64,000 bases of DNA from Metallosphaera yellowstonensis MK1 (lineage in GTDB: Archaea > Thermoproteota > Thermoprotei_A > Sulfolobales > Sulfolobaceae). The notes under the pieces were generated by a model. That model searched no databases. It was not told the DNA's origin and worked only from the letters and a program-made list of their open reading frames with translations. The stretch spans positions 1,072,256-1,136,255 of the forward strand of contig NZ_JH597761.1 of the NCBI RefSeq assembly GCF_000243315.1. The letters are read 5' to 3'. The position numbers and the translations under genes were made by a program. Of the stretch, positions 11,581 through 36,181 are shown one piece after another (the first letter of the stretch is position 1; each line of letters opens with the position of its first letter).

Positions 11581-12107
11581 ATGACTTCTGGGAAAGAGGA
11601 CGCGGGCCAGGTCGACGTTTTTGCGAAGCTTCACACCTCATACCAAGGACTTAGCCAAGAGGAAGCCTCCAAGAGGCTGAAGGAGTACGGGCCCAATATG
11701 GTAACTGAAAGGAAGAGGAATCCTTTAATTCTCCTCCTCCTGAAATTTTGGGCTCCTGTTCCCTGGATGTTGGAGATAACGGCCATCCTCACCTATGTCC
11801 TCCATAAGTACCTCGACATGGAAATAATACTCTTCCTACTCATTTTCAATTCCATTATAAGTTTCATGCAAGAATATAGAGCGGAGAACGCTGTGGAATT
11901 ATTAAAGAGAAGGCTCAAGGTCACTTCAAAGGTCAAGCGCGACGGTAAGTGGACCCTCATTCCGGCAGAGGAGCTTGTCCCTGGGGACGTCGTTTCAGTC
12001 AGGTTAGGCGATATAGTGCCTGCAGATGTTCATATAATCGACGGGATCGTCCTAGTCGACCAGTCCGTACTCACTGGTGAGTCTCAACCGGTGGAGAGGG
12101 GAAAAGG
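11581..12107 (+). pseudogene. P-type (plasma-membrane H+-ATPase-like) ATPase, 5' fragment
   Basis: The first ~176 codons of a P3A-like ATPase: [20 protein letters not shown] (cation ATPase N-terminal motif), the M1-M2 pair ([20 protein letters not shown] ... [20 protein letters not shown]), then the A-domain with [20 protein letters not shown] and [14 protein letters not shown] (TGES). The frame is then replaced by the end of an ISC1058-like element. The matching C-terminus is found at 23937-24232 on the same strand. The P-domain (DKTGT), N-domain and most transport helices are absent from the window, so the pump is dead. Confidence 0.85.
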
Positions 12108-13169
12108 TGCTTTGTGGGTCACTTCATAATTATACAAAAATTTATAACTAATTACATCGAGTATTACCCATGGGAAAGAGTAAGCACAAGGGAAAGAGTG
12201 AGTACAAGAGGGATTGGCACAAGTACGACGAGAACGTCATAACGAGATACGAGCTAATGTTCCCCTTCTACGTCTTCCAACACTGGTGGGAATTACTCCA
12301 GGAAGAGAATAGGAATGCCAAGAAAACCTACAAGGCACCAAAGGAGTTCAACGACTTCCTAGCGTTCCTGCACTTGTTCCTACCCTACAGGGCAATGGAA
12401 GGAGTATTGAGAGCACTAGAGGGACTGAAGGTCGTCCCGACAAGCCTAGACTACTCGACAATATGGGAAAGGGTGAGGAACATGGACGTAACGTTCCCCG
12501 AAGCGAGTGACGAGCTAGAAGTGATAGCTGATGGTACTGGAATAAGCACAACGAGGGGAGGACAATACGTCGTTGCAAAGTGGGGTAAGACCAGGGACTC
12601 AAAGTTCCTCAAGATCGAAGTGGTTATGGAGAAGGACGAGTTCAAGGTAGTAAGCGCTGAGGTGACGAGCGACGAGGTCGAGGCTGCAGTCAAGACTAAG
12701 GACTTACAGGATGAGGGGAAGAAGGTGGAGAGGTTTTATGGGGATAAGGCTTACGACGCCAACGAGGTTTACAAGACGGGAGTTGAGGTAGTTGTCCCAC
12801 CTAGGGAGAACGCTAGGCGCGGTCATCCCGCCAGGAGGAAGGCTGTGAGGGAGTTCAAGGAGTTGGGCTATGAACGTTGGAGGGAGGAGAGGGGTTACGG
12901 TGTTAGGTGGAGAGTTGAGTCCCTGTTCTCTGCAGTGAAGCGTACCTTTGGTGAATCTGTTGGGGCTACAAGTTTTGCTGGGCAAGTGGTTGAGGCTAAG
13001 CTCAAGTTCTGGGCTTACGCATGGATGGTCCATTTAGCTAATTATGTAGTCGGTAGGGCTCCTGGTATTAAGGTTTGAGCTCACGAATGACGTTGAAATA
13101 TTAACTACTGAAAAATCCTCAGTGTATCATATTATGTTTATGAAATAAATTGAAGAGATCCACAAAGCA
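12108..13169 (+). mobile_element. IS5-family (ISC1058-like) insertion sequence
   Basis: The ends are inverted repeats TGCTTTGTGGGTCACTTCA (12108-12126) and TGAAGAGATCCACAAAGCA (13151-13169), with 17 of 19 matching. Length 1062 bp fits ISC1058. The left end sits inside the P-type ATPase gene. No matching target duplication flanks it, which agrees with later deletion or recombination on one side. The same ends occur on two non-coding mini-elements (36564 and 46283) and as a solo end at 59850. Confidence 0.85.
12170..13078 (+). CDS. IS5-family transposase (ISC1058-like)
   Basis: 302 residues, very basic N-terminus (GKSKHKGKSEYKRDWHKYDE). DDE residues: EVIADGTGISTT (Asp), VERFYGDKAYDANEVY (Asp), and GVRWRVESLFSAVKRTFGE (Glu with R..V...F...K). 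The frame is intact and uses native-like codons. A TATA-like run ACAAAAATTTATAACTAA lies just upstream inside the element. Probably functional, and a plausible source of transposase for the mini-elements with the same ends. Confidence 0.85.
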   Translation: MGKSKHKGKSEYKRDWHKYDENVITRYELMFPFYVFQHWWELLQEENRNAKKTYKAPKEFNDFLAFLHLFLPYRAMEGVLRALEGLKVVPTSLDYSTIWERVRNMDVTFPEASDELEVIADGTGISTTRGGQYVVAKWGKTRDSKFLKIEVVMEKDEFKVVSAEVTSDEVEAAVKTKDLQDEGKKVERFYGDKAYDANEVYKTGVEVVVPPRENARRGHPARRKAVREFKELGYERWREERGYGVRWRVESLFSAVKRTFGESVGATSFAGQVVEAKLKFWAYAWMVHLANYVVGRAPGIKV

Positions 13170-13330
13170 GATCTACTGTGAAGGGTGTGGGTTTTCCCGC
13201 TCGCCGGTGATAACTTGATGTCCAGTTGCTTTGCATCTTCAATCATCTTTCTTGTTATTTTTACTCTTCGCCAGTCATCTCTGGTTATTTTATGCTTCTT
13301 AATGAACCTTTCAACATCCAAAAACATCAC
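13170..13330 (-). pseudogene. N-terminal fragment of an unknown gene cut by the IS5 element
   Basis: A frame from ATG 13327/13330 (MFLDVERFIKKHKITRDDWRRVK, shown in part) runs ITRKMIEDAKQLDIKLSPASG and is then fused to IS sequence at 13169. Its upstream region is interrupted by the ISC1217-like IS, whose target duplication ACCTGTT shows that 13329 and 14555 were once adjacent. No family is recognised. Because the flanks of the IS5 element do not match, this fragment belongs to inserted DNA rather than to the ATPase gene. Confidence 0.4.
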
Positions 13331-13335
13331 CTGTT

Positions 13336-14554
13336 CAGCAGTTATGGGAATCTTAGGGAGGTAATACGAAGAAGTCGGTATTAGCGAGAAGTTTTTAATT
13401 TTCGACGTCGTCCCGCTGAAAAGATGTAGATGACGAACAGAAAGGGACAGGTCGAACTGGCTAAGGAGGATCTGATCAAGGCGGTCAACCAGGTCCTGGG
13501 CATAGTGAGGAGGAACGGGAGGAGCAGGAAGGTCGGGTTGGCACTCGTCTTGATGGTCCTGCTAGGTGGGAGGTCCAGCGTGAGGAATGCTGCTGAGACG
13601 TTCGGGTTGGACTACGCGAACCTGCTGGAGGCGTTGGGGGAACTCCACGACGCGTGGAGGGACTACCTGGAGGTCCTGTCGGGGCTGGTGAAGGGTGAGG
13701 TGGCCGTCATCATAGACGACACCGTGGACCACAAGGAGTACTCCAGGGGGAGGGACGTGAGCCCCCACGGGAACTACTGGATCTACTGCCACGCCCACGG
13801 GAGGTTCGAGAGGGGCGTGCAGCTCCTCACGGTCGCCATAGTGGACCTCTCCACGGGCAGGACGTTCATGGTGGGAGCCTTCCCCTACGCCGTGAGGAAG
13901 ATGTTGGACTTGGGGATGGTCAACGAGTTCAAGACCAAGATCGAGATGGCCAGGGAGATGTTGGACGTGCTCAAGGAGCGCTTCCGTGTGTCCAGGGTCG
14001 TCTTCGACTCGTGGTACTGGTCAGAGAAGCTCGTGAAGGACAACGTGGTGTCTGAGCTCAAGTCCAACCGGAGGCTCCTCAGGGTCGAGTCGGCCCGGGG
14101 GACCCTCGAGGAGGTGGAGGGACACCTCCGAGTGGGGGACCTACCCCCCGGAGTCTACTACGCCGACCTGACCCTGGGAGGCCAAGCGATTACGGTAAAG
14201 TTGCTAGTCTGGGAATATAAACGTGACTCCGGGTCACACGTGAAGTACCTCTACACGACCGACCTCTCGCTCAGCGAGGAGGAGATCGAGGAGGCCTGGA
14301 GGATGAGGTGGGAGATCGAGAAGCTCCACAGGGACGTCAAGGCCCTGGGACTGGAGGACTCCTCATTCTGGAGGAGGGAGAGGCTTCAGGGCTACCTCGC
14401 GATCTTCACCATCATGACCAACGTCGTCAGGGAGCTGGTGGGGGAGCTTAACCTGAGGAGCGTGGAGGCGTTCCTCAGGTTCGTTGAACGTCTTTAGGCG
14501 GACCGCTGGGGCTGATGAAAATCTTTAAGTTACGTTAAAGTCCCATAACTGCTG
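13336..14554 (+). mobile_element. ISC1217-like insertion sequence, complete copy
   Basis: Starts CAGCAGTTATGGGAATCTTA and ends TTAAAGTCCCATAACTGCTG: the outer 13 bp are inverted repeats. The element is 1219 bp and is bounded by a perfect 7-bp target duplication ACCTGTT (13329-13335 and 14555-14561). The two other copies in the window (41084-42219 and 58758-59846) are decayed. Name is inferred from the length and transposase type. Confidence 0.85.
13430..14497 (+). CDS. DDE transposase of the ISC1217-like element
   Basis: 355 residues. VAVIIDDTVDHKEYSRGRDV carries the first Asp pair, SRVVFDSWYWSEKLVKDNVV the second Asp, and RMRWEIEKLHRDVKALGLED the Glu with the YREM-like R..E..H.D.K signature of IS4-group transposases. 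The gene is uninterrupted and GC-richer than the host genes. Its terminal repeats match the 64-bp mini-elements, so this is the only obvious intact transposase in the window that could move them. Confidence 0.85.
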   Translation: MTNRKGQVELAKEDLIKAVNQVLGIVRRNGRSRKVGLALVLMVLLGGRSSVRNAAETFGLDYANLLEALGELHDAWRDYLEVLSGLVKGEVAVIIDDTVDHKEYSRGRDVSPHGNYWIYCHAHGRFERGVQLLTVAIVDLSTGRTFMVGAFPYAVRKMLDLGMVNEFKTKIEMAREMLDVLKERFRVSRVVFDSWYWSEKLVKDNVVSELKSNRRLLRVESARGTLEEVEGHLRVGDLPPGVYYADLTLGGQAITVKLLVWEYKRDSGSHVKYLYTTDLSLSEEEIEEAWRMRWEIEKLHRDVKALGLEDSSFWRRERLQGYLAIFTIMTNVVRELVGELNLRSVEAFLRFVERL

Positions 14555-14618
14555 ACCTGTTAATATTCCTCAGAAACATTAACTTTTCAGGTGCTTTTAA
14601 CACCCAAAACAGCTGTTT

Positions 14619-15203
14619 TCAGCCTTCAGACATTTGCGATGGTTCTGCGCGCAGAAAAACGCCAAAATTCGCCTTTGAGAACCATATAGTGTAAAATGCT
14701 TTCACATTTGAAGAGCCGAGGGGGGATTCGCCATCGGCGGAGATCCACGAGAATGAGATCCTCACATCGTCTGCTAGCCGCTCTTTTAGCTTCTCACAAC
14801 TCGGTCCGGGTGAAATCCACGTTCCCTGGCTCCCATCATAGTACGAGCAGAACAATTGATATGTATTCACGGCTTCCCCCTCCGATAGTGAAATCTCAAG
14901 ATCGATCCCCGCCGAGGATTTCCCAAGATCGTGCAGATAGTTGCGCAGCTCGGTCTCTTGAATACCCCCTTCTAGGCCGACCGCCGCCCTCAGGAGGCGC
15001 AGCGCCCTGATCATGTTCGTCTTCCCGGAGCCGTTCGGGCCGACGATCAGCGTCCTCCTCCCCAGCTCGATCCAGCCCGAGTCCTCGTAAGTCAGGAGGT
15101 TGCGGATCCTCAGCCTACTTATTATCTGCGGCACGTATGAAGAGGGATGCACGCGCTGAAAAGGTTTGTCGCGGAGGGCGCTTGAGGCATCCGCGCCATC
15201 CAT
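14619..15203 (-). pseudogene. RecF/SMC-like AAA ATPase, N-terminal part only
   Basis: From ATG 15203 (MDGADASSALRDK) the protein reads SRLRIRNLLTYEDSGWIEL and RTLIVGPNGSGKTNMIRALR (Walker A GPNGSGKT), then continues for about 130 residues to a stop at 14619. The Q-loop, signature motif, Walker B and D-loop of this family (AAA_15/AAA_21/OLD-like) are missing, so the gene has lost its 3' half. Codon use is GC-rich, unlike the host. Longer upstream in-frame starts exist but run through non-coding-looking sequence. Confidence 0.6.
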
Positions 15204-15328
15204 ATCCGCCGCCTGCAATCCGGCGCCCCGCCTTGCGGCGGCCTCCATGGATCCCCGCGGATACCAGATCGCCGTGTGCGGCGGCAGACAACGAGAAATA
15301 TGAGATATCACCGGAATAAGCCTAAAGC

Positions 15329-15835
15329 ATGGCTGAACGTGGTAGTAAGTCCGAGTGCTGTGATAAATCCGGATGCGGCGATACCTATCAGCTGATCCGC
15401 GGCCTGAACATGGTGCTCGTGGGCATAGTTGCCTCATACTTTCTCGAGGTTATGAGGGCGTCAGAGGGCGCGGCCCCCATCTACGTCCTGGAGGGTCCGG
15501 GCAGCCCCTACTTCCCGAGCACCCTCGGAGCCTCGGTGGTCATCGTGGGTTCCGTGGTGCTCATCCCGATGTTCTGGGACAAGTACTTTCCCATGCTTCG
15601 CAACGGCAACTCCTGCAAGCTGCCGCTGGAGGTCATATATTCGTTTGTGGCCCTGCTCCTCCCATTGGCCGCCCTATTGGTCGTGATGGGCCCATTCGAG
15701 TGGCACGGCGCCCTCGGGCTCAGGGCGCGCTACGTAGCAGCTATATACATATCCGCGGCCCTGCCGATCGTTGCGTTGAGGCTTCACCGGAAAAGGCAGC
15801 AATGCCCGAAGGTCCTGCCGCCGCGCGGGCGGTGA
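15329..15835 (+). CDS. Four-helix membrane protein with N-terminal Cys cluster
   Basis: 168 residues, unrecognised. The N-terminus has SECCDKSGCGDT (three Cys in eight residues), followed by four hydrophobic segments: MVLVGIVASYFLEV, a STLGASVVIVGSVVLIPMFW stretch, VIYSFVALLLPLAALLVVM, and YVAAIYISAALPIVAL, ending in a basic tail. It sits between two truncated ATPase genes in the GC-rich foreign segment, divergent from the first. The Cys motif could bind metal at the cytoplasmic face; this is a guess from layout only. Confidence 0.6.
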   Translation: MAERGSKSECCDKSGCGDTYQLIRGLNMVLVGIVASYFLEVMRASEGAAPIYVLEGPGSPYFPSTLGASVVIVGSVVLIPMFWDKYFPMLRNGNSCKLPLEVIYSFVALLLPLAALLVVMGPFEWHGALGLRARYVAAIYISAALPIVALRLHRKRQQCPKVLPPRGR

Positions 15836-15905
15836 AGGGCCACCGGATGGAAGCCTCGTGGTCGGGGGCCGCGAGCCTAATAATCGCGGACGTGCCATCC
15901 CGGGC

Positions 15906-16019
15906 GTGCACGTGACCAAGCTGGGGCTCGAGAACTTCCTGTCGTTCGATGAGGGTGAGCTGGAGCTCGGCGACCTCACGATATTGGTAGGGCCCAACGG
16001 GGCCGTTCCAATAGAGTGA
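15906..16019 (+). pseudogene. Second RecF/SMC-like ATPase, cut inside the P-loop
   Basis: From GTG 15906: VTKLGLENFLSFDEGELEL then GDLTILVGPNGA, after which the sequence leaves the family (VPIE, stop). The Walker A motif should continue GKS. The break at about 16003 is also where GC content drops, marking a recombination junction. It is a different member of the same ATPase superfamily as 14619-15203, on the opposite strand. Confidence 0.6.
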
Positions 16020-16059
16020 TTTTAAATCCATAATAAAAAATAAAAATAGATTTACGCGT

Positions 16060-19000
16060 TCACCAATTCCACAGATTCGCCAAAGACGTCGGATACTGGC
16101 CGTTTGCTATTGCCTTTGGCTTCTCTATCTTAACTACGTTGACCATCGTATCGAAATACACTGCCTGGTAGCTGATCGGATCCGCTAGCGGCATGCCGAC
16201 GTTGTTCTTGTCAGGCAGCATCAAAGGATTTGCTTGCAGGCCCCTTCTACGCCTCGGGTCAGCCTTTATCGTCACGCCGTCTATCACCGCATCCGTGGCC
16301 CCCCATCCCCAGTGCATGTAGTCTAGTACCACGCTCACCACCCCAGGGCGTATGGCCGGTGTCATCAGCACAGGCCCCTCGATGTACCTCTTCCCGAGCG
16401 GCCCCAGGTCGAGCTCGCCCGACGTGAGTGATGGACTTTCCAATCTAACGAAGTCGCCATTCTTGAGACCGAGGCTCTTGGCGTCCTCCGGGTTCATGAC
16501 CACGTTGGGATACGGCAGGATCGATAACTGGGACCAGTACTCCACTATGGTGCGCTTGGCGATGAATATCGGCTTGAAGGTATGTAGATGGTACGTGTAG
16601 CCCGTCTGATCGATCGGAGTGCCGTCCGCGTATGTCGGCGGGTAGTACTTTGGAATTCCGTGGTAGTATTGGCCGGTCACGCTGTCCTTGGTCGCGGCAA
16701 GGGCCTCGTTGAATACGTTCCACAGCCCTGGGTATCTAGCTACCTTTATGTACTCTCCCTCATACGACTCGCTCAGCGGCGTGGCGCGTCCGCCCCTGTT
16801 GAGCACGTACACTACCTTGGGCCACCAGGAACCCACGGCCTCCTGCCACTTCTGTGCGTCGAACACGCTCGGCGGCAGATTCCTACGCGCTTTGGAGAAC
16901 AGCTCCATCTCATCGTCGTTCGCGTCGGGCACCTCATCGCCGGGAGCGCTCCCGGCAGCCAAGTTGGCCACCTCCTTGAGGTGGAAGTGCTCCGGCCTCG
17001 TGAAGGGAACGCCGGGGCCGAATCCGTCGGGCCCGAACCCGGGCAGGTTCATCTTCTCCGCGATGGCCAGCAGCACGGCCTCCATGCTTATCGGCATCTG
17101 CTCGCCGTAGACCGTGACCGTCTCGGTCACGGGAGGGGCGGTCGGCTGCCTCACGACGGCGAACTTGCTTAGCACGCTCATGCCCTGAGGCGACGGAGAC
17201 TCCACCATCCACTGCTCGAGGTATGTCCCATCAGGGAAGATGTAGTCTGCGAATACTGATGTGTCCCCTATGTTCGTGTCTATCGCTATTATGAGCGGGA
17301 TCGTGCTGAGGTCGAGGAGCGCTTTTATTTGCTCATAGTTCGAAGGAACTAGGTTTGCCACATTGTTGGCGTACAAGATGGCGATCTTGAGAGGGTAGGG
17401 ATAGCCGGCCTTGGCGGCGGGCAGAATTTCCTGGTAGCCGCCTAGAAGCGTGGGGCTGGCCCAACCGAACGGGAACCACGAACGCTTAGCCGGGTAGCCT
17501 TGCTCCTTGTACAGGGTCGTCATCTCATATAGGTAGCCGGCCCTCATGATGTTGACCCCGAAGGGCGTCAGCCCGTTCGGGACGCTCATGACGTCGAACG
17601 CGCGGCCGGATGCCGTCGGCCAGCTCGCGGCCCCGACAGCCAGCCCGCCCTTGAAGTCGGGGTTGCCTATCAACACGTTGAGGAGCTGTATGGCCATGCC
17701 CGCGTAGGTTCCGTTGTAGTGGGCTATCGGTCCTCTGTACATGTCCACGGCAGCCTTATGGCCGTGGCTCGTGAACTCACTCGCCACGTCCTCCACATCG
17801 GCGGGGTTCACCCCGGCCAGCTGGCACCACTCATCGAAGCTCTTCGAAGATGCCTCCTCCCAAAGTAACTGGAAGGCGGACTTGACCCTTATCCCGTTTA
17901 TGGTTGTGTCCACGAACAAATCGCCTACAACGGGGTTCTCGGCGTCGTAGGGGTTGAACGCCACAGGTTGTCCGTTGACCATGGCCACGAAGTAGTCGTA
18001 TGGGTTGGCCCCGCTCGGCACCTGAAGCCCCAGATCCGCGGCGCGCACGAATCTGCTGGCCCTCCCGTCGGGCTCTATCTCCACGAGCCACGTGGCGTTG
18101 GTCCAGTCCAGGTAGCCGTTCTGCTGGGCCGCGGCCTTGTTGGCCGCGCTGAGAAACACGGCGTCGTAGCGCTTGTTCTCAATTATCCACCTTATCATCG
18201 CCATCGCGAGGGGCAGATCCCCTCCCGGCTTCACCGGGATCCACTTCCAGGCCTTCGCGGCCGTCTTGCTATACCTCGGATCGATCACCGCCAGCTTCAG
18301 GCGCCCGGTGACCAGGCCGTCGGTTATCAGCTCCGTGACATTGACCGGACCGAAGCTCGCCTCGAACGGGCTGGTGCCCCAGGCTATGACGAACTCGGCG
18401 TTGGCGTAGTCGGGCCTAGCGCCGGTCGCCCCTGGGAGCCATCCGTGGATGGGCTGCCCGGGGCCGATGCCGGTCTTGTTCCACCCGACGTATTGGGCCG
18501 TAACCAACTTGACGGACACGTGGTGCGCTATGTCGCAGATCGAAAAGTGATCCAGGACGTTGACGGAGCCCAGGGAGTACTTGGTGAACCTAATTGCGAG
18601 GTCGTACCTGCTGCCCTCGATGCGGCTGGCGAAGAATACGAACTGGTTGTTCTTGGGGCCCAGGTCCGGATGGTCGGGATCGATGAGGACATCGAGGTTG
18701 TCCTTGTACTTGGCTTTGAACTCGTCCACGGTCATCTGCCCCATCATTATCTTCTGCACGTCAGCGGCCATGGAGGCTGCGAGCTGGGGGTCCGTCAGCT
18801 TTATCACGTCCTTGAGCCCCTCGACGTACCTGTTCTCCTCGCCCGGCACATCCTTGAATAGATAGCCGCCGTTCACTATTTCCTCTATTGCCTGCTCGAA
18901 CGGGATGGAGATCCACTTATTGGAGCCCCTGGGACCTGCGCGCTTCAGAACCTTCACCACCCTGTAAGGGTCGGCGTAGTCCTGAACACCGGCCTGGCCC

Positions 19001-19431
19001 TTGGGGCAGACTTTGCCGTCTATGAGCACCGCCTGCGTGAGGGGCGTCTCGTACGGGAGCCAAGGATACATGTTCGTCGGTATGTAGGGATTCCCGTCGA
19101 TCTTGACTGGATAGCCGTTCCCGTTCTCATATTGGATCTTCACCTTTATACCGCAGTTGTTATGGCACATGAAGCAGGCAGAGTAAATTACGTTCTCCGG
19201 GTGCGCGAGCTGGTATACATCATAGTCGTTGTAGAAGACATGGGATCCCGAGCGTTCGGTGTTGGGACTGGATCCGCTGGTCGAGCCGTTGGCCGGGACC
19301 GGAGGGGATTCCTCCGCGGAGAGCAGCGCTGAGAACTCCGCCGCGCCGCCGAGCAGCGCGGCCGACTTCAGGAATTTCCTCCTCCCCTCGTCCGTCCCCG
19401 CCCTTTCCTTCCTGGTCTCGTTCCCGCTCAT
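16060..19431 (-). CDS. sreA: Molybdopterin oxidoreductase catalytic subunit (sulfur/tetrathionate reductase type)
   Basis: 1123 residues from ATG 19431. A twin-arginine signal ([18 protein letters not shown], Arg17-Arg18) directs it outside the membrane. Cys86, Cys89, Cys93 and Cys142 ([13 protein letters not shown] ... [10 protein letters not shown]) bind the FS0 [4Fe-4S] cluster. [15 protein letters not shown] places Cys299 as the expected Mo/W ligand, as in PsrA/PhsA/TtrA/ArrA-type enzymes. C-terminal MGD-binding segments include [24 protein letters not shown] overlap with the fused membrane/Fe-S subunit upstream. Acidianus SreA is the closest functional model (S0 reduction), but tetrathionate, thiosulfate or arsenate cannot be told apart by reading. 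GC-rich codons point to transfer. Confidence 0.75.
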
Positions 19432-22019
19432 GGCACCCACGCTCCATCGGCCATCGGCGCCTCCTCCTCCATCATGGGCTCGGTAAGGCCTATGTAGTAA
19501 ACTTTCGGCTCGGTGCCGAGTTCCTCCTTGAGCCTGGACACGCCCTGCTCGCGAAGCAGCTTCGAGACGAGGCTGTCCGGGTCGTTGAGATCGCCGAAGT
19601 AGGTCGCCCTGCCGATGCAGGTCGTGACGCACTGCGGCAACATCCCGGACTCGAGCCTGTGAATGCAGAAGTGGCACTTGTGCGTGTTGAACTTCGGCGA
19701 CTTCCTGCTGTCCACCGGACGATCCCATTTGTCAACGCCGTACTCAAACGACGTCCAAATATCGTAGTACTCGATCTTGGGCGTCCCGTCCGTGTAGTTG
19801 AGGCCCCAGTCGAAGGTCCTGGCCTGGTAGGGGCAGGTGGTGATGCAGTATCTGCAGCCTATGCATACATCGTAATCGATCGCGATTATGCCATCGGGCC
19901 TCTTGAACGTGGCACCCACGGGGCAGACTTCGGTGCATGGCGGGTTTTCGCACTGCATGCAGGGCCTCGGAAGGAAGGTCGCCGACTGGTTCGGATAGTC
20001 GCCGTGCACGGCCACCACAACCGGCCTGTACACGACTCCGGGGGGCTCCTTGTTCTCGATTTTGCACCCCACGGTGCACGCAAAGCAACCCACGCACTTG
20101 CGCGTGTCGATGACCATCCCCCACTTACGCTGGTTCGCGGGCTTGGCGAGGGCGCGCTTCAGATCCTCCATCATCCGATAAATTGGGTTCAGCTCATCGT
20201 ACCCGGGCGGAACCTGTATCGTCGGCTGGCCCGGCAACCACGTGTACGGCTGCGACCAGCTCTCGTCCTCGAAATCCGTCTCCGCGACGGCCACCTGCGC
20301 GGCCTGCGCAACTAGCGGGGAAACCGCGACGACCCCTTCGCCGGCGGCCTTCACCAGTTTATTCTCGTCCACGAAGCTGGGTCTCTCCGCCCCCTCCCTG
20401 CGAGCCAGGCCTTCGATTATCCCGGTGCTGACCGCTGCCAGCCTCTCGCGCTCCCTGGCTATGAGGGCCCTCGCCGCCTGCCTGCTGTACGCCAGCGCAG
20501 ATGACGTCGCCTTGGTCAGGGCACCCCACTTGATGGAAACGGCCACTAAGAATCCGGCCGCCGCCAAGCTGACGGACCTCAGAAACCCCCTCCTCTCCAT
20601 CAGCTTAGGCTCGCCCGCATCACCGCTGATGGGACCCATCGATCCCCCGCGCCCCTGCTCAGGCATCGTGGGAGCCGATCCCCCGCGCCCCTGCTCAGGC
20701 ATCGTGGGAGCCGCTGCCCGCGGCACGAGCGGCAGGATGCGATAGCCGAGATACAGCAGCCCGATGCCGAATGCCACCATGAACGTGACCACCTCCCATT
20801 CGTGGATGCTCGGGGTGTACGTGTCAATGAGCCTGGGATCGACGTAGGCGGACTGCAGGCCCGGAATTTCCGGTACACTGTAGGCCGGGATGACCTCAAC
20901 GAGGCGGACCGCGAAATAGAAGATACCTGCGAACGCGCCGCCGATGCCGACGATTACGGGCCTATCCCTGAACCGGCTGCTGAGGAGGATCCCGGGGACG
21001 ATGAACCCCAGCAGGACCTCGAAGATCCAGAAGACGTACCAGTACTGCCCGAACAGGACCTCGTTCGTAATGGCCGTGCCGGCGGGGTCGGTTCCGTACC
21101 AGATGGGAATTACGAGGTCGGCGACTATGAGCACGGCGTTCCCGATGAGGAGCCAGTAGACGATCCTCCCCAGATACGCGATCATCTCCCTGAACTCCTC
21201 ATCCTTCCTCGGCCATAGGGCCATTAGGATTACTATGAAGAGTGCCGCCCCGGAATACAGCGCTCCGGCTACAAATACTATCGGAAATAGCGGACCGGTC
21301 CACCAGGGCTTGGAGAAGTACACGGTGCCCAGTAGAGCTCCAACTCCGCCGTGGAACAGCAGCGCGATGATGAGGCCAAACGCCCCCAAATATAGGAAGG
21401 ACCTGCGAATCAACCTCGCGCTCCTCTCCAGGCTCTCCGGAGAGCCGGCACTCGGGTGCAGCAATCTGGATATCAATTTCTTTATAGGAGCACTTCCGCC
21501 GAGCGAGCCGAAGCGGCCCTCTATCAAGTCGAGGCGGAACGATAGCAGGAGCTCCACCACGAGGAGCACGAAGTATATAACGTATACCGTCACTACGTCG
21601 GCCATCACTGAGTGGTATTGGGGCCGAGAGAGCACCTCGATCGCGCGTTCTGGGTGCCCGAGATCGAGGATTATCGTGAAAATGGCCATGATCAACAGCA
21701 CGAGGGCGCTGTAAAGGGATAGCTTCACCGTGGGCTCCAGCTTTTTCGTACCCAATACGTTCACGATCACGGAGATCAAGAACGCGCCGGCGGAGGCACC
21801 TATGAAATACATGTATGTCGGGACGTACAGCCCCCACACCACGTAACTCGTCGCGTTGGTCAAGTCCACTGGTGAGGTCAGTTCCTCGTACACCGCTATG
21901 GCGCCGACGACGAAGGCGACAAACCACATTGCGAACAATCCGACCTTCAGGGAACTGACGCCGCGATGGAGCCGCGACGTCCTTTGCCCTTTGCTATCTT
22001 CGGAATTCAACATTCTCAT
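19428..22019 (-). CDS. NrfD-like membrane anchor fused to a four-cluster Fe-S subunit
   Basis: 863 residues in one frame. Residues 1-435 are an NrfD/PsrC-like quinone-reactive membrane domain of 8-9 helices. Residues 437-460 are two identical copies of [12 protein letters not shown]. Residues 476-481 (RRGFLR) plus the following hydrophobic stretch look like the Tat signal of a stand-alone Fe-S protein. Residues 636-810 carry four [4Fe-4S] sites: [41 protein letters not shown] and CHFCIHRL...CVTTCIG. In known Sre/Psr/Ttr systems these are two proteins (C and B). It would take electrons from quinol to the Mo subunit outside the cell. The start overlaps the end of the rep reading frame. Confidence 0.8.
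20641..20712. repeat. Exact 36-bp tandem duplication inside the NrfD::Fe-S linker
   Basis: Two identical 36-bp units (20641-20676 and 20677-20712) begin GATCCCCCGCGCCCCTGCTC. They encode the duplicated 12-residue linker between the membrane domain and the buried Tat-like segment. Exact identity suggests recent slippage. Confidence 0.9.
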
Positions 22020-22787
22020 ACCCCTTCATTAAATGATATTTCAAGGAAACAAGTGACTTGCTCACCGTCCAACCCCTACTATTGAGCGCCCAAAGTAACG
22101 CTTTTTGTTTAAACGCCTTTCTCTTTGTTTCATCATCATCACCCTTAAAACTTTTCAACAGATACTTTAACAAATATCTAATAGCCCTTTGTCATTAGTG
22201 ATACGTTTTACATTAATTTGAGTTCCCACTCCATAATGATTTTCCCAAAGTTCACGTATCCACTCTACAGGAACAAAATCAACACCGAACAGCATGATGT
22301 GCAGATGTGGATTACCCGATTTCTGAAACTCTACGACCCTTACATAGCCTATGAAGTTAGGATACCGCTTTCTTATGGCTGTAACGATTTTGTTCCATCC
22401 TTCTATCATCCCTGTGTATGCTTGATGCAAACTTGAGAATCTGTTAGGGTTCAACGTCAACGTAAGGAAGATGCCTTCCGTATAGCCTATCTTCTTCCAT
22501 TTCCGCGCGATTCTCTTAGCATATTCATCATCAAAGCGTGTTTTATAAGGCAGATACTTTATCTTTTGATGTTCATGGTTTATCAAAACAAGCGTCTTAT
22601 TCGTAACATCCTCCATATACCTTTTAGCATACGCCTCTACTTCATCAGCGCTTCCCCACGCATTATCATAACCAAATATACTTGGTCTACGCACAACACG
22701 ATTGGCTTCTAAAAACAACGGGTGCTTTTTAGCGTAAGATTTATCAGGCGCCCCACATATTATATTTCGCTCGTCATCGAGGTCCAT
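21994..22787 (-). pseudogene. rep: HUH-type rolling-circle replication initiator (Rep), one frameshift
   Basis: From ATG 22787 (MDLDDERNIICGAP) the first ~206 residues include GIFLTLTLNPNRFSSLHQAY (motif I) and VVEFQKSGNPHLHIMLFGVD (HUH metal motif). The frame then stops at 22167 after NDKGLLDIC. Skipping one base in the GGG run at about 22185 restores AIRYLLKYLLKSFKGDDDE, whose YxxKY holds the expected catalytic tyrosines, and the frame continues ALLWALNSRGWTVSKSLVSL to a stop at 21994. So the gene was a complete Rep and now needs a frameshift to make the nicking tyrosine. AT-rich codons, unlike the GC-rich genes beside it. Confidence 0.75.
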
Positions 22788-22817
22788 ATGTGGGGGGATA
22801 ATTATCCCCCCGCATAT
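22786..22817. repeat. 32-bp near-perfect palindrome at the rep start
   Basis: Two 16-bp arms with no loop: ATATGTGGGGGGATAA and TTATCCCCCCGCATAT, one mismatch. It covers the start codon and immediate upstream region of rep. It can extrude a cruciform or hairpin and is a candidate nick site (double-strand origin) or a Rep-binding operator. Confidence 0.8.
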
Positions 22818-22848
22818 ATCGTTTTCGAAATTAAACTCAAACACGGGT

Positions 22849-22929
22849 AAAAGTAAACTGAAATTGGACAAATTAAAGTAAAAGTAAAGTAAAAGTAAAC
22901 TGTTTACTTTTCTCACGCAGTTTACTTTT
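22849..22929. repeat. Iteron-like repeats upstream of rep (candidate origin)
   Basis: The 12-mer AAAAGTAAACTG occurs at 22849-22860 and 22891-22902, and inverted at 22918-22929, with partial AAAGTA copies between (22874-22890). GTAAACTGTTTAC forms a local palindrome. Position 60-140 bp upstream of rep fits an origin or Rep-binding region. Confidence 0.6.
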
Positions 22930-23045
22930 CCGCTCTTCATCGAAAACCGGAAAACCTAAGGAAGACCTAAAGAAAAATTCCGCACTCACATGATGTGTGA
23001 AAAACACACGGCTTAACACAAGCAATCCTTTAAAGCTAATCATAA

Positions 23046-24403: not shown

Positions 24404-25828
24404 ATGATGAGATCTTCCCTATCCAGTAGGAAGCTATTTCTCATAGCTACGGTTGGAATGTTGGTCGCAGCTCTCGTAATGGGATTGGCAAGCGTCCCCA
24501 TGGCTCAGACGACACCACAGGTTGTTGCCTACAAGATCACAGGAACGGCCAACCTGAGCGCCCCAGGAACAGAACAGTTCTGGTCCAATATAGCCTGGGA
24601 CAACATATCCCTGACGGCCAACATACCTCAAGCTCCGACCTCTGGAATAACGCACTACGTGCTCGTCAAAGCAGCATGGAACGGAACTGACCTCATGATC
24701 CTCATGAGATGGTATGCTCCATCTCCCGCCTACGGGGCGTGGTCTGCCGCGGCCGGAGCGTTGTATCCTCCCGCGAGTGGTCCTGGGCTGTTCAGGCTGA
24801 TTGAACTCACACCCGGTACCACCTATTACATGAATACCTCCTATTCTAACTATTATGCAGTAGTGAACGGAGTACCCAAAAGCGGAAGGCTTATACTCAA
24901 TTACTCAGGCATAACTCTACCTACCCCCAACGGGACCCAGATCGAGGTTCTGTCCAACGGAACAATCATCCTGTACCACTCCCTGAGGCCGATGGAGGAT
25001 CTCCTTTACAACAACGGTATGTTCTACGGGTATTATACGAACTCCACGTGGTATTACCCAGATAGGGCTGCCATAATGTGGTACATGGGGACTGTCATCC
25101 CGCCAACCAGTGACTGTATGAACATAGGAGGAAAATTTCCAGGTCAGACATTCGATGGATTTACCCTGAAGGATGCCGGAGGATCTCTACAGCAACAGGG
25201 AGGTGCTGCCAATATATGGATGTGGGTATCAGGAGCTACCTGGGCCAACAAGACCTACGATCCAGCCTTCGCCACTAACCTGTGGCAGAACGAATCCTTG
25301 ACCGGCCTGCCGTACATAGATCCAGGAAATCAAGGTTTCGCAGTACCCCTCTACACCAACAACACTGACATGTATGAGGTCGACACTGCTGGGATATGGT
25401 ACGCACCAGTCTCTTCCTCTGGGTTAAATGGCTCTCTTTTCTTCGTAAAGACCGGAGCCACTTACTCCGACGGTTACTGGACTGTGGAGTATGTAAGACC
25501 CCTAGCTGTTCCTCAGGCCTACGCGCAGTGGATGCCCAACTTCACAGTAGGTAATACTTACTACGTTGCCTTCGCCGTATGGCAGGGAAAGTTGGGAGAG
25601 ACGTTGTTCGATAAGTCCATCACATCAGGCTTCCTGCAGTTCACTCTCTCCACCTCTCCCCCCTCCCAAACTACGACCACTACGAGCACGAGTACAAACA
25701 CTACCACGACGACACCACCGTCCACCACCACTAGTACAGTAAGCAATGTAACCCTGGACGTCACAGTGGTAGGGGCAGTAGTAGCCATAATAGCCTTAGT
25801 TGCCCTCTACGTGGTGTTCAGGAGATGA
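24404..25828 (+). CDS. cbsA: Cytochrome b558/566 subunit A (CbsA)
   Basis: 474 residues. Signal peptide at the N-terminus ([20 protein letters not shown]), an ethylbenzene-dehydrogenase/DMSO-reductase gamma-like haem-binding body ([42 protein letters not shown]), a Thr/Ser-rich stalk after residue 425, and a C-terminal membrane anchor ending in RR. Many NxT/NxS sites fit the heavy glycosylation known for Sulfolobus CbsA. It faces the outside and holds haem b. TTTATTAA at 24362-24369 is a credible TATA box. The stop overlaps cbsB by 4 nt. First gene of cbsA-cbsB-soxL-soxN-odsN. Confidence 0.88.
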
Positions 25829-26760
25829 GCCTCAGACAGGGAGGCCTCCTCAAGTTAACCATGGTTTTTTTAGCCTTAGGTTCTGTCCTCCAGTTCATTC
25901 TTCAATTCGTCGCCTCAGTGTCCTTCCTTCCCATAAAGATACCTGCCCTCCCTCTTCTCACCAGATTGGGAGAGGTGGGGATCTACCTCAGCTTCGTGAG
26001 CATTGTGACGCTCTCATTCCTTATTTGGCCTAAGGTGAAGGCCTTGCTCCCCCTCGGGCTGATCCTCATGATATCTCCCGTGTTCACGATCGTTCCAGAC
26101 TACTTTGCGTCGCCCTGGTGGATAGCCCTCGAAGTAGGTGTCGTAGTCCTGGGAATAGTTGCCATCGTGGAGAGCCTGTTGAAGGCGACACCTCTTTCAC
26201 TCCTAAATCTTCCCACGTTTTTCATGGTGATCATACTCATGTGGGTAGCCCTAGACGTAGATGTAGTTCACAGCGAGGCACTCCTCAATTACTTGGCCTT
26301 ATTCGACGCGTCAGTACTCGGTTTTGCCTTGTACACTCTAGTGTGGAAGACCAAAGGACTGAGGATGAGGAGAGCCTTGGCTTCGTATGGGGGGGCCGTT
26401 CCTGCCCTATTCGTCTTCTTACCCTTGTACTTTGTGGTGTCTGGTAACAGGTTCATGGAGATCATAATGAACATGGTCATGCCCTCGGTCTTCGGCATAG
26501 TGTTCTCAAACCCTTATTCTCTGCCAGTCTTCGTCCTCTCCCTGAGCCTGGCCTTGTATTTCATTGTGGCACTAGCGTTGAAAGGTAACTTCCTGGCCTC
26601 CCTGGGCTACTTCATGATCGTGACCACGACTTTCCTGGGCGTTAATGGTTACCATCTTATTCTATACATGATTTACCCTCTAGTGGGCTCTGTACTGCTC
26701 AATGTTGGTGACGAAGGGGCCTCTATCCTGTCCAAGTTGAGTAAATCAGTCCAACGTTGA
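25825..26760 (+). CDS. cbsB: CbsB, membrane partner of CbsA
   Basis: 311 residues, almost all hydrophobic, with about nine predicted helices (for example [20 protein letters not shown]). No cofactor motif is plain. CbsB always follows cbsA in Sulfolobales and is thought to anchor the haem subunit. ATGA overlap with cbsA shows coupled translation. FoxD (45241-46236) is the equivalent partner of FoxC in the fox cluster. Confidence 0.85.
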
Positions 26761-26805
26761 AGACTTAATATTTATGGTAGCCCTCTTAAACTCTGTGAAA
26801 GGCTC

Positions 26806-27786
26806 ATGCCCCTAAAATTCAGGCTCGGAAACGGGGAGAAGGGAGTTCTGAGGACCTCGGATTTACTCTTCATTCAGAAGATGCTCAAGACCATGAGAAA
26901 CCCGAAGACTAGGTTCGACTCGAGGGAGTTCGTTGAGAAAGGGGAGGATTACCTCTTCAACTACGTGGGGAAGAACGTAGGCGGAGTAGATGAGGGGAGG
27001 AGGAATTTCCTCAAGGGCATAGTGATCGGGATAGCCGCAGCTACAGTTGTGGGAGTAGTTCCAGGGTTGAGAGTATTAGTACCTCCAGTTCAACAAGCCT
27101 CTGGTTTCCCCAAGTCGCTTTTGACCGACTCCTCAGGAAATCCCGTGAAGGCATCATCCGTACCCGTAAATAGTCCCATCATTATGCTCTTTGAATACCC
27201 GTTGACTGGAGAGCCTAACTTCCTGATCAACCTGGGGGACAAGGACAACAACCCTGTAGCCATAGCACCGGTTGAGGTCACTGTTCCCCAGACAGGCAAG
27301 AGCTACAAGTTCCCGGGTGGCGTGGGTCCCAAAAACTCCATAGTTGCCTATTCGGCCATATGCCAGCACCTTGGATGTACCCCTCCGTACATACACTTCT
27401 ACCCGCCTAACTACGTTGGACCGTCCCAGCTAACCGCTCCAGAGCCAGATACGCTCACGGCACAGGCCCTGCTGGCGGCTAAACAGGCCAACGTCCCAGC
27501 TCTAATTCACTGCGATTGTCACGGCTCTACCTACGATCCCTATAGGGGGGCCGCAGTCCTCACCGGACCTACGGTGAGACCTCTACCGGCAGTCCTGTTG
27601 GAGTGGGACAACTCCACAGACTACCTCTACGCTATTGGGGCCATAGGAGTGGCAACGTACCCAGAGGGGGCTGACGGAACGCCGTCTCAGGATCCAAACT
27701 CCGACTTGAATACATCGCAGTTCGGCAGTTCAGTGGGTGACAAGACCCAACTGCAGGCCAGTACAAACCCATTCTCGGGTTCATGA
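26806..27786 (+). CDS. soxL: Rieske iron-sulfur protein (SoxL type)
   Basis: 326 residues. A long cytoplasmic N-terminus precedes a Tat signal (GRRNFLKGIVIGIAAATVVG, Arg65-Arg66). The [2Fe-2S] ligands are Cys186/His188 (CQHLGC) and Cys236/His239 (CDCHGS), with Cys191 and Cys238 as the usual disulfide pair. A 45-residue loop between the boxes is longer than in mitochondrial Rieske proteins, as in archaeal SoxL/SoxF. It passes electrons between quinol/cytochrome b (SoxN) and CbsA in a bc1-like complex. Leader TTAATATTTATGG upstream is TATA-like. Confidence 0.88.
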   Translation: MPLKFRLGNGEKGVLRTSDLLFIQKMLKTMRNPKTRFDSREFVEKGEDYLFNYVGKNVGGVDEGRRNFLKGIVIGIAAATVVGVVPGLRVLVPPVQQASGFPKSLLTDSSGNPVKASSVPVNSPIIMLFEYPLTGEPNFLINLGDKDNNPVAIAPVEVTVPQTGKSYKFPGGVGPKNSIVAYSAICQHLGCTPPYIHFYPPNYVGPSQLTAPEPDTLTAQALLAAKQANVPALIHCDCHGSTYDPYRGAAVLTGPTVRPLPAVLLEWDNSTDYLYAIGAIGVATYPEGADGTPSQDPNSDLNTSQFGSSVGDKTQLQASTNPFSGS

Positions 27787-27831
27787 GTCCAACGATTAAC
27801 ACTTTTTTGTCTTGAAACATGAGGTGATAAC

Positions 27832-29472
27832 ATGAGTGGTTCCAAAAGGATCTCCGGGTGGTTCTCAGAGAGGTTGAAGCTTGAGGACCTCCCGTTCTTC
27901 AAGACTCCTGACTACATGTACCACGTGAACGAATGGCTCGGTGCACTCGTGGCAGCCTCCTTCATCTATACGATCATCTCTGGGCTTATACTCCTCCTGT
28001 ATTACAACCCAGAGGCCGGCTATCAGTCCACTGAGGCCATAATTCAACAGGTACCTTATGGTTCTGTGGTGCTCTACAGCCACCTCTACGGGGCATACGC
28101 TATGATCATCCTGGCCTACGTCCACATGTTCAGGAACTACTTCGCTGGAGCCTACAAGAGACCTAGAGAACTCCTATGGATCTTGGGAGTTCTCATGCTA
28201 GTCCTAACTTTGGGGGCTTCCTTCCTAGGTTACAGCCTAATCGGGGATGCCTTGGCTGTGAGCGCTGTGGACGTCGGTGCTGGAATAATAACTTCCATTC
28301 CCCAGCTATCCTTCCTGATCCCCATTATATTCGGGAACTACGATACAGGTGATTACGAGAGAGTATTGGCCATGCATATCATCCTGGTAGCTTTGATAGG
28401 TTTACTATTCGTCTTCCATTTCTTCCTTGCCGAACAGTACGGCATGATGCCGTCTAGGAAGGTAAAGCCTAAGGTTCCCGCGGTGTATACAAAGGAGGAG
28501 TGGTCCAGGTTCAACCCGTGGTGGCCTAGAAATTTCGTCTACATGAGCTCCTTGATCTTCATAACTTGGGGCTTCATACTCGCGGTACCCAACGCTCTGG
28601 CTTACCTGAACGGTCTCCCCCAGTTCCTCAACCCCTTCATGAACCCTAAACCTGCTCCACCTCCCAATAGCCCGGCTGCAGCTCACATAACTACCTATCC
28701 TCCGTGGTTTTTCCTTTTCCTATACAAGATAGCCGACTTCACCAGTGACGTAGTGGTGTTCCTACTCATAGGCGTCATCATTCCGTTAGTCTACCTAGTC
28801 CTGGTACCCTTCATCGACAGGTCTGACGAGCTTCATCCCCTGAGGAGAAAGGTCTTCACTGGGATCGGGATATTGATGATGACATACCTCATTCAGACGT
28901 CCCTCTGGGGTGACCTAGCACCTGGAGTAGAGGTGAGTGTTAAGGAACAGGTCGTCGCTTACCTGATTCCAGCCATAATAGTGGCACTGGGTCTGACCTT
29001 CATGAAACCGTTGGAGAATCAAGGGAAAGTAATTAAGGGTACATCACCGCTTACGTCCATTCTCTTCGTTATTGTAGCCATGCTGTTCGCTGGAGCTTGG
29101 GTGGAGCTGTTACAGTACCCATCGGCCTTCACCTTTGCGGTGACCGCCTTCTTCGGATCACTCTTCTATTTAGGGGCTAAGGAGATGTCCAAGGTAGTGC
29201 TGACTTCGGTTCCCAACAGGGCTTTGCCAGAGACCAGGCAGGCTACGGTATCCACTTCCAACGAGACCAAGAAGAAGTTTGCTGAGATCCTCATGAGTTT
29301 GCTCTTCATCCTAGTGGTGATCCTAGTGGCGCAGATGTGGACTATACCTCCCACCGGCTACGCCTCCAATCTCTTCGGAGTGGACTTAGGTCTAGTGTTC
29401 CTCATGCTCGGGGAAGCCATCTCCCTATATCATTACGTAGTGTATAAGAAACCTAACGAAGTGGTGGAGTAA
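27832..29472 (+). CDS. soxN: Cytochrome b subunit (SoxN) of the bc1-like complex
   Basis: 546 residues with the cytochrome b fold. Haem ligands: the two His in SHLYGAYAMIILAYVHMFRN (helix B) and the two in MHIILVALIGLLFVFHFF (helix D). NPWWPRNFVYMS and PAAAHITTYPPWFFLFLYKI cover the Qo region (PPW in place of PEW). The C-terminal third adds further helices beyond the eight of bc1. RBS-like GAGGTGATAA precedes the ATG. T-rich TTTTTTATTTT after the stop (29474-29485) suggests a partial terminator before odsN. Confidence 0.88.
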   Translation: MSGSKRISGWFSERLKLEDLPFFKTPDYMYHVNEWLGALVAASFIYTIISGLILLLYYNPEAGYQSTEAIIQQVPYGSVVLYSHLYGAYAMIILAYVHMFRNYFAGAYKRPRELLWILGVLMLVLTLGASFLGYSLIGDALAVSAVDVGAGIITSIPQLSFLIPIIFGNYDTGDYERVLAMHIILVALIGLLFVFHFFLAEQYGMMPSRKVKPKVPAVYTKEEWSRFNPWWPRNFVYMSSLIFITWGFILAVPNALAYLNGLPQFLNPFMNPKPAPPPNSPAAAHITTYPPWFFLFLYKIADFTSDVVVFLLIGVIIPLVYLVLVPFIDRSDELHPLRRKVFTGIGILMMTYLIQTSLWGDLAPGVEVSVKEQVVAYLIPAIIVALGLTFMKPLENQGKVIKGTSPLTSILFVIVAMLFAGAWVELLQYPSAFTFAVTAFFGSLFYLGAKEMSKVVLTSVPNRALPETRQATVSTSNETKKKFAEILMSLLFILVVILVAQMWTIPPTGYASNLFGVDLGLVFLMLGEAISLYHYVVYKKPNEVVE

Positions 29473-34426: not shown

Positions 34427-36181
34427 TTAGAGTATCTTGTCAGGCCCCGTTTCGGCTCCCTTAGTCATCTTATCTGCACTGGCTTCAGTCGGTAAGGCTT
34501 TTACTCCCACTCCGGATCCTCTGGCTACTCCGTTATTCTCTTCTATCATTATGTTTCCGTCGGCCGGTAGCATGAGCGGTAGCTCCTCCTCCTTGTAGCC
34601 TTCCCTCCTCATACCGTATCTCTCCAGGGCTATCGTCTGAACTGCCCACATAGGCAGATCCGTCTTCGGCATCTTCTCACCGTAGAGGAGGGTTAGCACC
34701 AGGTTGTAGGCGAATATTATCGTCGCGAAACCGGCCAGCCATCCACCTATCAGCAGCAGTTGGTAGTAGACCTCGTAGAAGCCAGCCCACGCGACCTCCC
34801 TCCTTATGAGGCCGAACATTCCTCCTTCACTAGACGCTATGGCGAAGAGCCCCATTCCTGCCTGCCAGCCCCAGAAGTGTAGCCAGCCTAACTTGTTGCT
34901 ATACCATTTCTTGCCGAAGAGATCTGGGCCAACTACGTAAAGGGCACCTAGCAGTCCCCCCACCGAATATATGGCGAGCATTATATGGAAGTGGCCGAAT
35001 ATCCAGCCTGTGTTGTGTACCGTTGGATCCACGGCCGGTACCGGGTTGGTGGGTTCTGCCTGGATCCCACCAATGATGTTCCACACTGCTGCGGCGAAAA
35101 TGAAGGCGAAACCGGGATCCCACTTTAATTTCCTGGGGTCTCCTAGTGTTGTGAAGAACAGTAACCAGAGTGCAGCGAAGGGTACGGCTATCAGGGCCGT
35201 GCTGGTCTGGGCGAAGATGTCCCTGAGGATGAGGGGCCACGGGTCGTCAACGATGTGGTGCACGTAGACGCTGGAGCCCAGGACGAAGAGTACTGGAATG
35301 AGCCACCTGGTGAACCTGACGCTGTACATTGGCCTCCTGGCGTAGAGCGGGGTTATGGCCACAGTCGCTCCGGTCAGTGCGTACGGGGCGAAGTACACCA
35401 GTGGGTGATCTGCAAACCAGAACAGTCCCTTCCACACCTCGGCGTTAGGGATACCGAACAGGTAGATGTTGAGCCCACCTATGGGGGAGAACAGACTCCA
35501 CATGTCAGCTATGAAGACGGATATGTTGGCCAGGGCCATCATGATCATGTCCATTACTATGAAACCTATGGCAGTCGGCACAAGCCTACCAGGGACTCTT
35601 CCTAAGAAGGAAGTACCTAGGACAGAAACCATCTCCAACCACTCTCCCACTACCATTAGTCCGTACCCTATGTACCAGGTGGGGGAGGCCTGCAGTGGGT
35701 TCAGGAACGTGAAGAGGTACTGGTTCTGGATTCCACCGAGGTTCATCATGAATAACGCCAATATGCTGAGCCAGAAGCCGGCGTTGGCTATCTTGGGCCA
35801 CTTCACCAGCCTAGAGCCGTTCAGTGCTGGTATCATGTAGAACGCCACTGCGAACACCACGTTGAACGCTGCACCGAATATCATGTCCATGACGTGGTTG
35901 GTCATGGCCTGGAAGTAGTACGCTGGATCCACCACAACCGGTACTCCCTCGCTGGAGAGCCCCGCCTGTCCCCTCAGTATGAGGGCGAAGGCTCCCCCTA
36001 TGAAGAGGAACATCAAGCCAGCGAGGATTAGCTTTATGGATATCGTCTTATAGTCTTCAGTGTATAATACCTTCATTAGTAGCGATCTCTTAGCTTCTCT
36101 CTCCTGGACCTCTTGAAACTGTCTGGCCCACTCCGTGAGTTTTTCTCTTTCTTGCCTCCTAATCTCCTCGTGCGTAGCCAT
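34427..36181 (-). CDS. foxA: FoxA, haem-copper oxidase subunit I of the iron-oxidation cluster, copy 1
   Basis: 584 residues, about 12-14 helices. Haem and copper ligands are complete: His96 (TNHVMDM), His259 and Tyr263 (DHPLVYF, the crosslinked His-Tyr), His308-His309 (VHHIVDDPW), His397 and His399 (GHFHIM). It would reduce O2 with electrons from Fe(II). The N-terminus is a charged helical extension ([18 protein letters not shown]). A TATA box (TTTTTATATC, 36205-36214) sits 23 nt upstream. The neighbouring paralogue shares long stretches of identical DNA separated by diverged patches. Confidence 0.9.

Follow-up and report, generated by a model that had tools for sequence, protein, structure and literature searches.

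Proteins that are handed from Sec to Tat have experimentally defined hallmarks, including a low hydrophobicity of the last helix (Tooke et al. 2017, PMC5449189). One of the proteins treated in that study, the polytopic polyferredoxin Q1NSB0, is a NapH-NapG fusion and a dual Sec/Tat protein, and the minimum cytoplasmic loop in dual Sec/Tat proteins was put at 8 residues (PMC5449189). Among quinone-reactive membrane subunits, ActC has ten helices with its N- and C-terminus both in the cytoplasm (Calisto and Pereira, PMC8076601), and in QrcABCD the NrfCD pair links a P-side quinone site to four clusters by electron transfer (PMC13059093). The membrane subunit (C) and the four-cluster Fe-S subunit (B) are ordinarily separate proteins, as the original prediction for the locus described here had stated; of about 100 loci that contain relatives of the two halves, 97 have B and C as two genes, B first, and 71 show the order B-C-A when the gene for the A subunit is taken into account.

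In the window, a stretch of 64,000 nucleotides from Metallosphaera yellowstonensis MK1, the two subunits are encoded by one gene, and the result is a set of known modules in a rare, new architecture. From its N-terminus, the chain comprises a ten-helix NrfD part, a 47-residue linker, and the motif RRGFLR with one hydrophobic helix, followed by a helical spacer that leads to a four-[4Fe-4S] domain (Table 1); Pfam places NrfD (PF03916, E 2e-35) at residues 54-381 and Fer4_11 together with related 4Fe-4S dicluster models at residues 640-801. The predicted open reading frame of 863 codons proved exact, and neither a stop nor a frameshift, either of which had been named as grounds for discarding the fusion, is present at the C/B join of the open reading frame. 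The same fusion, with a protein identity of about 81%, occurs independently in a second genome, Thermoproteus sp. CP80 (L021, NZ_LCWM02000005.1), and every gap in the alignment of the two consists of whole codons; with this independent case, proof of the fusion does not require the resequencing of the join that had been suggested. When the 317 substitutions between them were placed randomly, a mean of 6.3 stops resulted; because only 0.1% of these trials stayed free of stops, the fused frame is, judged from the two sequences, maintained by selection and not by chance, under a constraint that is real yet modest. With a fairly high dN/dS (0.56 in the fusion gene and 0.38 in the A gene) and the fusion present in two genomes only, selection on the join itself is unproved. 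Read-through of an ordinary B-C operon was rejected as an origin, given that the usual order is B-C whereas the fusion has the order C-B.

Table 1. Features of the fused gene and the adjoining A gene, with positions in the window.
Feature	Position	Strand	Basis
C+B fusion gene (NrfD + four-cluster Fe-S)	19428..22019	-	ATG start, 863 codons/aa
NrfD domain, ten predicted TM helices, ActC-like fold (residues 15-428)	20736..21977	-	AlphaFold2, Foldseek
Predicted cytoplasmic linker (residues 429-475), disordered in model	20595..20735	-	alignment, AlphaFold2
Exact 36-bp in-frame tandem duplication in linker (12-residue unit twice)	20640..20711	-	missing from CP80
Internal Tat-like segment: RRGFLR (476-481; 20577-20594) + helix TM11 (about 478-498)	20526..20594	-	motif, alignment
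Predicted extracytoplasmic helical spacer (residues 499-611), ~80 residues beyond stand-alone B	20187..20525	-	RR-to-Cys distance, model 2
Four-[4Fe-4S] NrfC/PsrB/TtrB-type domain (residues 630-845)	19485..20132	-	Pfam, NCBIfam, Cys motifs, model 2
TtrA-like molybdopterin subunit, 1123 aa, N-terminal Tat signal RRKFLK (GRRKFLK), FS0 cysteines	16060..19431	-	NCBIfam, motifs
Two-gene unit common to window and Thermoproteus sp. CP80	16035..21951		90% DNA identity over 5.9 kb, not beyond it

The fusion is rare. A survey of 398 Thermoproteota genomes, in which frames matching NrfD at E < 1e-20 were listed, gave 78 NrfD matches, and only the window protein (865 aa from stop to stop) and its CP80 homologue (853 aa) were longer than 660 aa. 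On inspection, two other long NrfD frames of 651-652 aa, in genomes G413 and G343, proved not to be fused to an Fe-S domain, and a candidate third fusion, L131 (genome G522), has the coordinates of the L021 contig and is the same record. The plasmid records held no single place covering 80% of the fusion and no DNA match, and literature searches turned up no fusion of NrfD and Fe-S parts that contains an internal Tat signal. Uniqueness of the layout does not hold, given the close homologue in CP80; nor is the layout new in the sense of lacking precedent, as a polyferredoxin in which NapH and NapG are fused around a Tat signal inside the chain has been published (PMC5449189). A distant operon at L162 has separate genes in the order C-(107-aa membrane ORF)-B-A.

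An AlphaFold2 model based on 62 sequences shows ten confident helices in the NrfD half, with pLDDT mostly >80, and the best solved matches found for this half with Foldseek were ActC chains of alternative complex III (TM 0.74-0.78 on target, full length; top match 8k9e_C, TM 0.78), well above the eight-helix PsrC. The C half therefore has the attributes by which NrfD/PsrC subunits are recognized (PF03916 and two four-helix bundles, 8-10 helices), except that it is joined to the Fe-S subunit and is not a separate polypeptide; it matches 33 of the 38 columns conserved in stand-alone C proteins. Successive loops of the window protein carry 6,0,3,2,9,1,4,0,3,1,6 Lys+Arg residues (3-9 inside, 0-2 outside), and because this pattern alternates regularly, the chain from residue 429 onward is predicted to be cytoplasmic. 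Since the ten-helix, ActC-like half would end in the cytoplasm, in agreement with the loop charges, the RR-helix would be required to bring the Fe-S domain outside, and the domain would have to cross because the Tat signal of the A subunit places A outside. The earlier proposals that the Fe-S domain must lie outside and that the buried Tat-like segment serves as an extra helix are both borne out to this extent, the first by the RRKFLK signal of the A subunit together with ten NrfD helices and a cytoplasmic C-terminus, and the second as the best reading, with the segment as the 11th helix.

In the alignment, the RR segment of the fusion coincides with the Tat signal at the N-terminus of stand-alone B proteins. 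Among the 11 helices, TM11 has the highest summed insertion cost in both fusions (Hessa-2005, a crude scale and not the dgpred server), and basic residues after it give a net charge of +2 in the window and +1 in CP80. The cytoplasmic loop before TM11 is well above the 8-residue minimum (the linker measures 47 residues in the window and about 35 in CP80), and TatC is encoded in the genome. The best reading of motif and topology is that the fusion is a predicted new member of the dual Sec/Tat class. The 36-bp duplication in the linker, which the original prediction did not mention, is private to the window; it adjoins an internal ATG (M461) that CP80 lacks.

From the RR pair to the first cluster Cys, the distance is 166 residues in the window and 165 in CP80 as compared to 72-87 in 27 stand-alone B proteins. 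In model 2, the extra spacer consists of a prolongation of helix 11 to residue 541 and two short helices (at moderate confidence), and this spacer, common to both fusions, may give the tethered domain the reach from helix 11 to the quinone site. The domain beyond it retains each of the 16 cluster cysteines that its stand-alone relatives conserve (C642...C801) and matches 97 of the 104 columns conserved in stand-alone B proteins; its best NCBIfam models are DsrO and TtrB, all under their cut-offs. Model 2 gives it a confident PsrB/ArrB-like fold (Foldseek matches 6cz7_B and 2vpw_B), which, with its four [4Fe-4S] Cys motifs, places it in the NrfC/PsrB/TtrB type. In model 1 the Fe-S domain is not confidently positioned on the NrfD half, and pLDDT is <50 over much of the domain.

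The A gene, which follows the fusion in CP80 too, overlaps the stop of the fusion with its start by ATGA. Its product has a C-x2-C-x3-C...C cluster motif and, in the Mo-ligand region, a Cys that we infer to be the ligand. TtrA is its best NCBIfam model with 440 bits (PhsA, 145), short of the TtrA equivalog cut-off of 1750; the label SreA given originally is unsupported, and TtrA, though below its cut-off, is nearer. With such a TtrA-like subunit, the simplest prediction is a complex that would use quinol to reduce a compound of sulfur, selenium or arsenic, although it may also run in the opposite direction.

The two-gene unit stands apart from its surroundings. G+C is 0.595 at 14500-22030 and 0.497 in the remaining window, and the unit has transposase genes (12170-14497) on one side and a replication-protein-like gene (22167-22940) on the other; because of this high G+C and this position, recent horizontal acquisition, between the distant archaea Sulfolobaceae and Thermoproteus, appears likely. 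This A subunit, and with it the two-gene unit, is missing from the other genomes of the family that were searched, five of the same genus among them. In trees, both fusions group on a long branch; next to them in the C tree is a Nitrososphaerales protein, L099 (support 0.96), and the B tree shows no clear sister. Several other features of the region were observed. Directly adjoining the two DDE transposase genes (12170-13078 and 13430-14497) is a 182-aa fragment of a P-type cation ATPase (11581-12129), which holds N-terminal domains only and looks truncated. The replication-protein-like gene bordering the transferred unit matches REP_ORF2-G2P / Rep_1, and near it are AT-rich repeats (22828-22902) and a 16-nt palindrome (22786-22817). 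Also near the unit is a cbsA-cbsB-soxL2-soxC cluster (24404-29472) that matches Sulfolobales-specific NCBIfam equivalogs, and adjacent genes for heme-copper oxidase subunit I (34427-36181 and 36745-38511; 584 and 588 aa) are possibly a duplication.

We consider it probable that the single chain is a Ttr/Psr-like quinol-to-molybdoenzyme module assembled by a Sec-then-Tat handover, with predicted use of Tat, an uncleaved product, and tethering of the domain. One polypeptide would join a quinone-reactive subunit of the NrfD/PsrC/TtrC type to a four-cluster electron-transfer subunit of the NrfC/PsrB/TtrB type. Sec would insert the ten NrfD helices with both ends in the cytoplasm, where the Fe-S domain would fold and gain its clusters; Tat would then take over at RRGFLR and the weakly hydrophobic helix and move the folded domain outside, and the Tat signal would remain as an uncleaved 11th helix. 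The helical spacer would let the Fe-S domain reach the P-side face above the quinone site, where electrons from quinol would pass through it to the A subunit, which Tat would export on its own, or would flow in the opposite direction. We give roughly even odds to the broader view that this 11-helix chain is a permanently tethered quinol-to-molybdoenzyme wire and that a second branch of this principle of construction is formed by those NrfD proteins of other Thermoproteota in which an internal RR helix precedes a different exported domain.

It is conceivable, though unlikely, that the frame is fused while the working proteins are separate, a Tat-targeted B being freed by internal starts at M461 or M474 or by proteolysis in the linker. 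M461 in the window would open a protein with a normal Tat signal, with a G-rich GGGGGA a few bases upstream, and the linker is disordered in the model; however, M461 is Thr in CP80, M474, the Met common to both fusions, has no clear ribosome-binding site before it, and both proteins have after the RR helix the fusion-specific spacer of ~80 residues, which a free B would not need. Very improbable is an arrangement in which both halves are used and the Fe-S domain stays in the cytoplasm, as in SoeABC, with a vestigial RR segment. SoeC-type subunits are indeed expected to face the cytoplasm (PMC8076601), but the A subunit bears a canonical Tat signal, Tat signals also occur in many stand-alone relatives of B, and loop charges place ten helices ahead of the RR segment. 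We see only a slim chance that Sec inserts the 11th helix without Tat, in which case the Fe-S domain would cross unfolded and gain its clusters outside. While TM11 is hydrophobic enough for borderline insertion, we know of no case of cluster assembly outside the membrane, which counts against such a route. RRGFLR is, moreover, identical in the window and CP80 fusions, and low hydrophobicity is a published signature of Tat handover (PMC5449189). Finally, an assembly or cloning artefact at the join, exactly where the 36-bp tandem duplication lies, has a practically negligible probability, as it is refuted by the independent CP80 genome, which contains the fusion but lacks the duplication; on the evidence of both genomes, the fusion is not a sequencing artefact.

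If the handover just proposed is correct, it would extend Sec-to-Tat transfer from the published 2-, 3- or 4-helix leaders to a 10-helix leader and would bring it into the Thermoproteota. The chain would also be a natural one-chain form of the widespread NrfCD electron-transfer module, and its 1:1 stoichiometry and fixed tether would make it a convenient system for studying the cooperation of quinone site and first cluster. The fusion offers a clean way to test, in a heat-loving archaeon, by what route chains of this kind get across the membrane.

With regard to known systems, the same three parts occur in TtrB-TtrC-TtrA-type operons of Chloroflexota, Thermaceae, Desulfosporosinus, haloarchaea, and two other Thermoproteota, to which the parts of the fusion unit are about 50-65% (B), up to 43% (C), and up to 53% (A) identical; in these operons, however, B and C are separate with B first, and where B has an N-terminal Tat signal, 72-87 residues lead to the first Cys. 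The SreABC sulfur reductase of Acidianus and Thermoproteus tenax (PMC3189178) is likewise an archaeal Mo-FeS-NrfD respiratory complex with Tat signals, but its genes are separate and in the order A-B-C, whereas the order here is (C-B)-A, the A subunit is nearest to the TtrA model, and no Sre model is among the matches. QrcCD of QrcABCD (PMC13059093) and PsrBC also pair an NrfD-type subunit (ten helices in QrcD) with a four-cluster subunit at a P-side quinone site, but as two polypeptides, and QrcB is without cofactors while the A subunit here retains the FS0 cysteines as well as, in the Mo-ligand region, a Cys. Two NrfD proteins of other Thermoproteota, L171:1109-3052 (G413, 647 aa) and L172:993-2885 (G343, 630 aa), contain an internal RR motif (RRSAMK and RRTYLR, respectively), a hydrophobic segment, and then a C-terminal domain of ~150 aa, an order of parts like that of the fusion; their C-terminal domain, by contrast, lacks Fe-S clusters and matches no Pfam model, and a separate gene for a Tat-type Fe-S (B) protein lies just upstream. 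Downstream of both NrfD genes is a gene with a CuA-like C-x3-C-x3-H motif. The closest analogue is Q1NSB0, which also combines a quinol-dehydrogenase membrane part with a four-cluster Tat-type Fe-S part and, like other dual Sec/Tat proteins, has an even number of Sec helices, an internal RR, one weak last helix, and an exported cofactor domain; it differs in having 4+1 helices and the NapH fold as compared to 10+1 helices and the NrfD fold here, and PMC5449189 names no NrfD protein.
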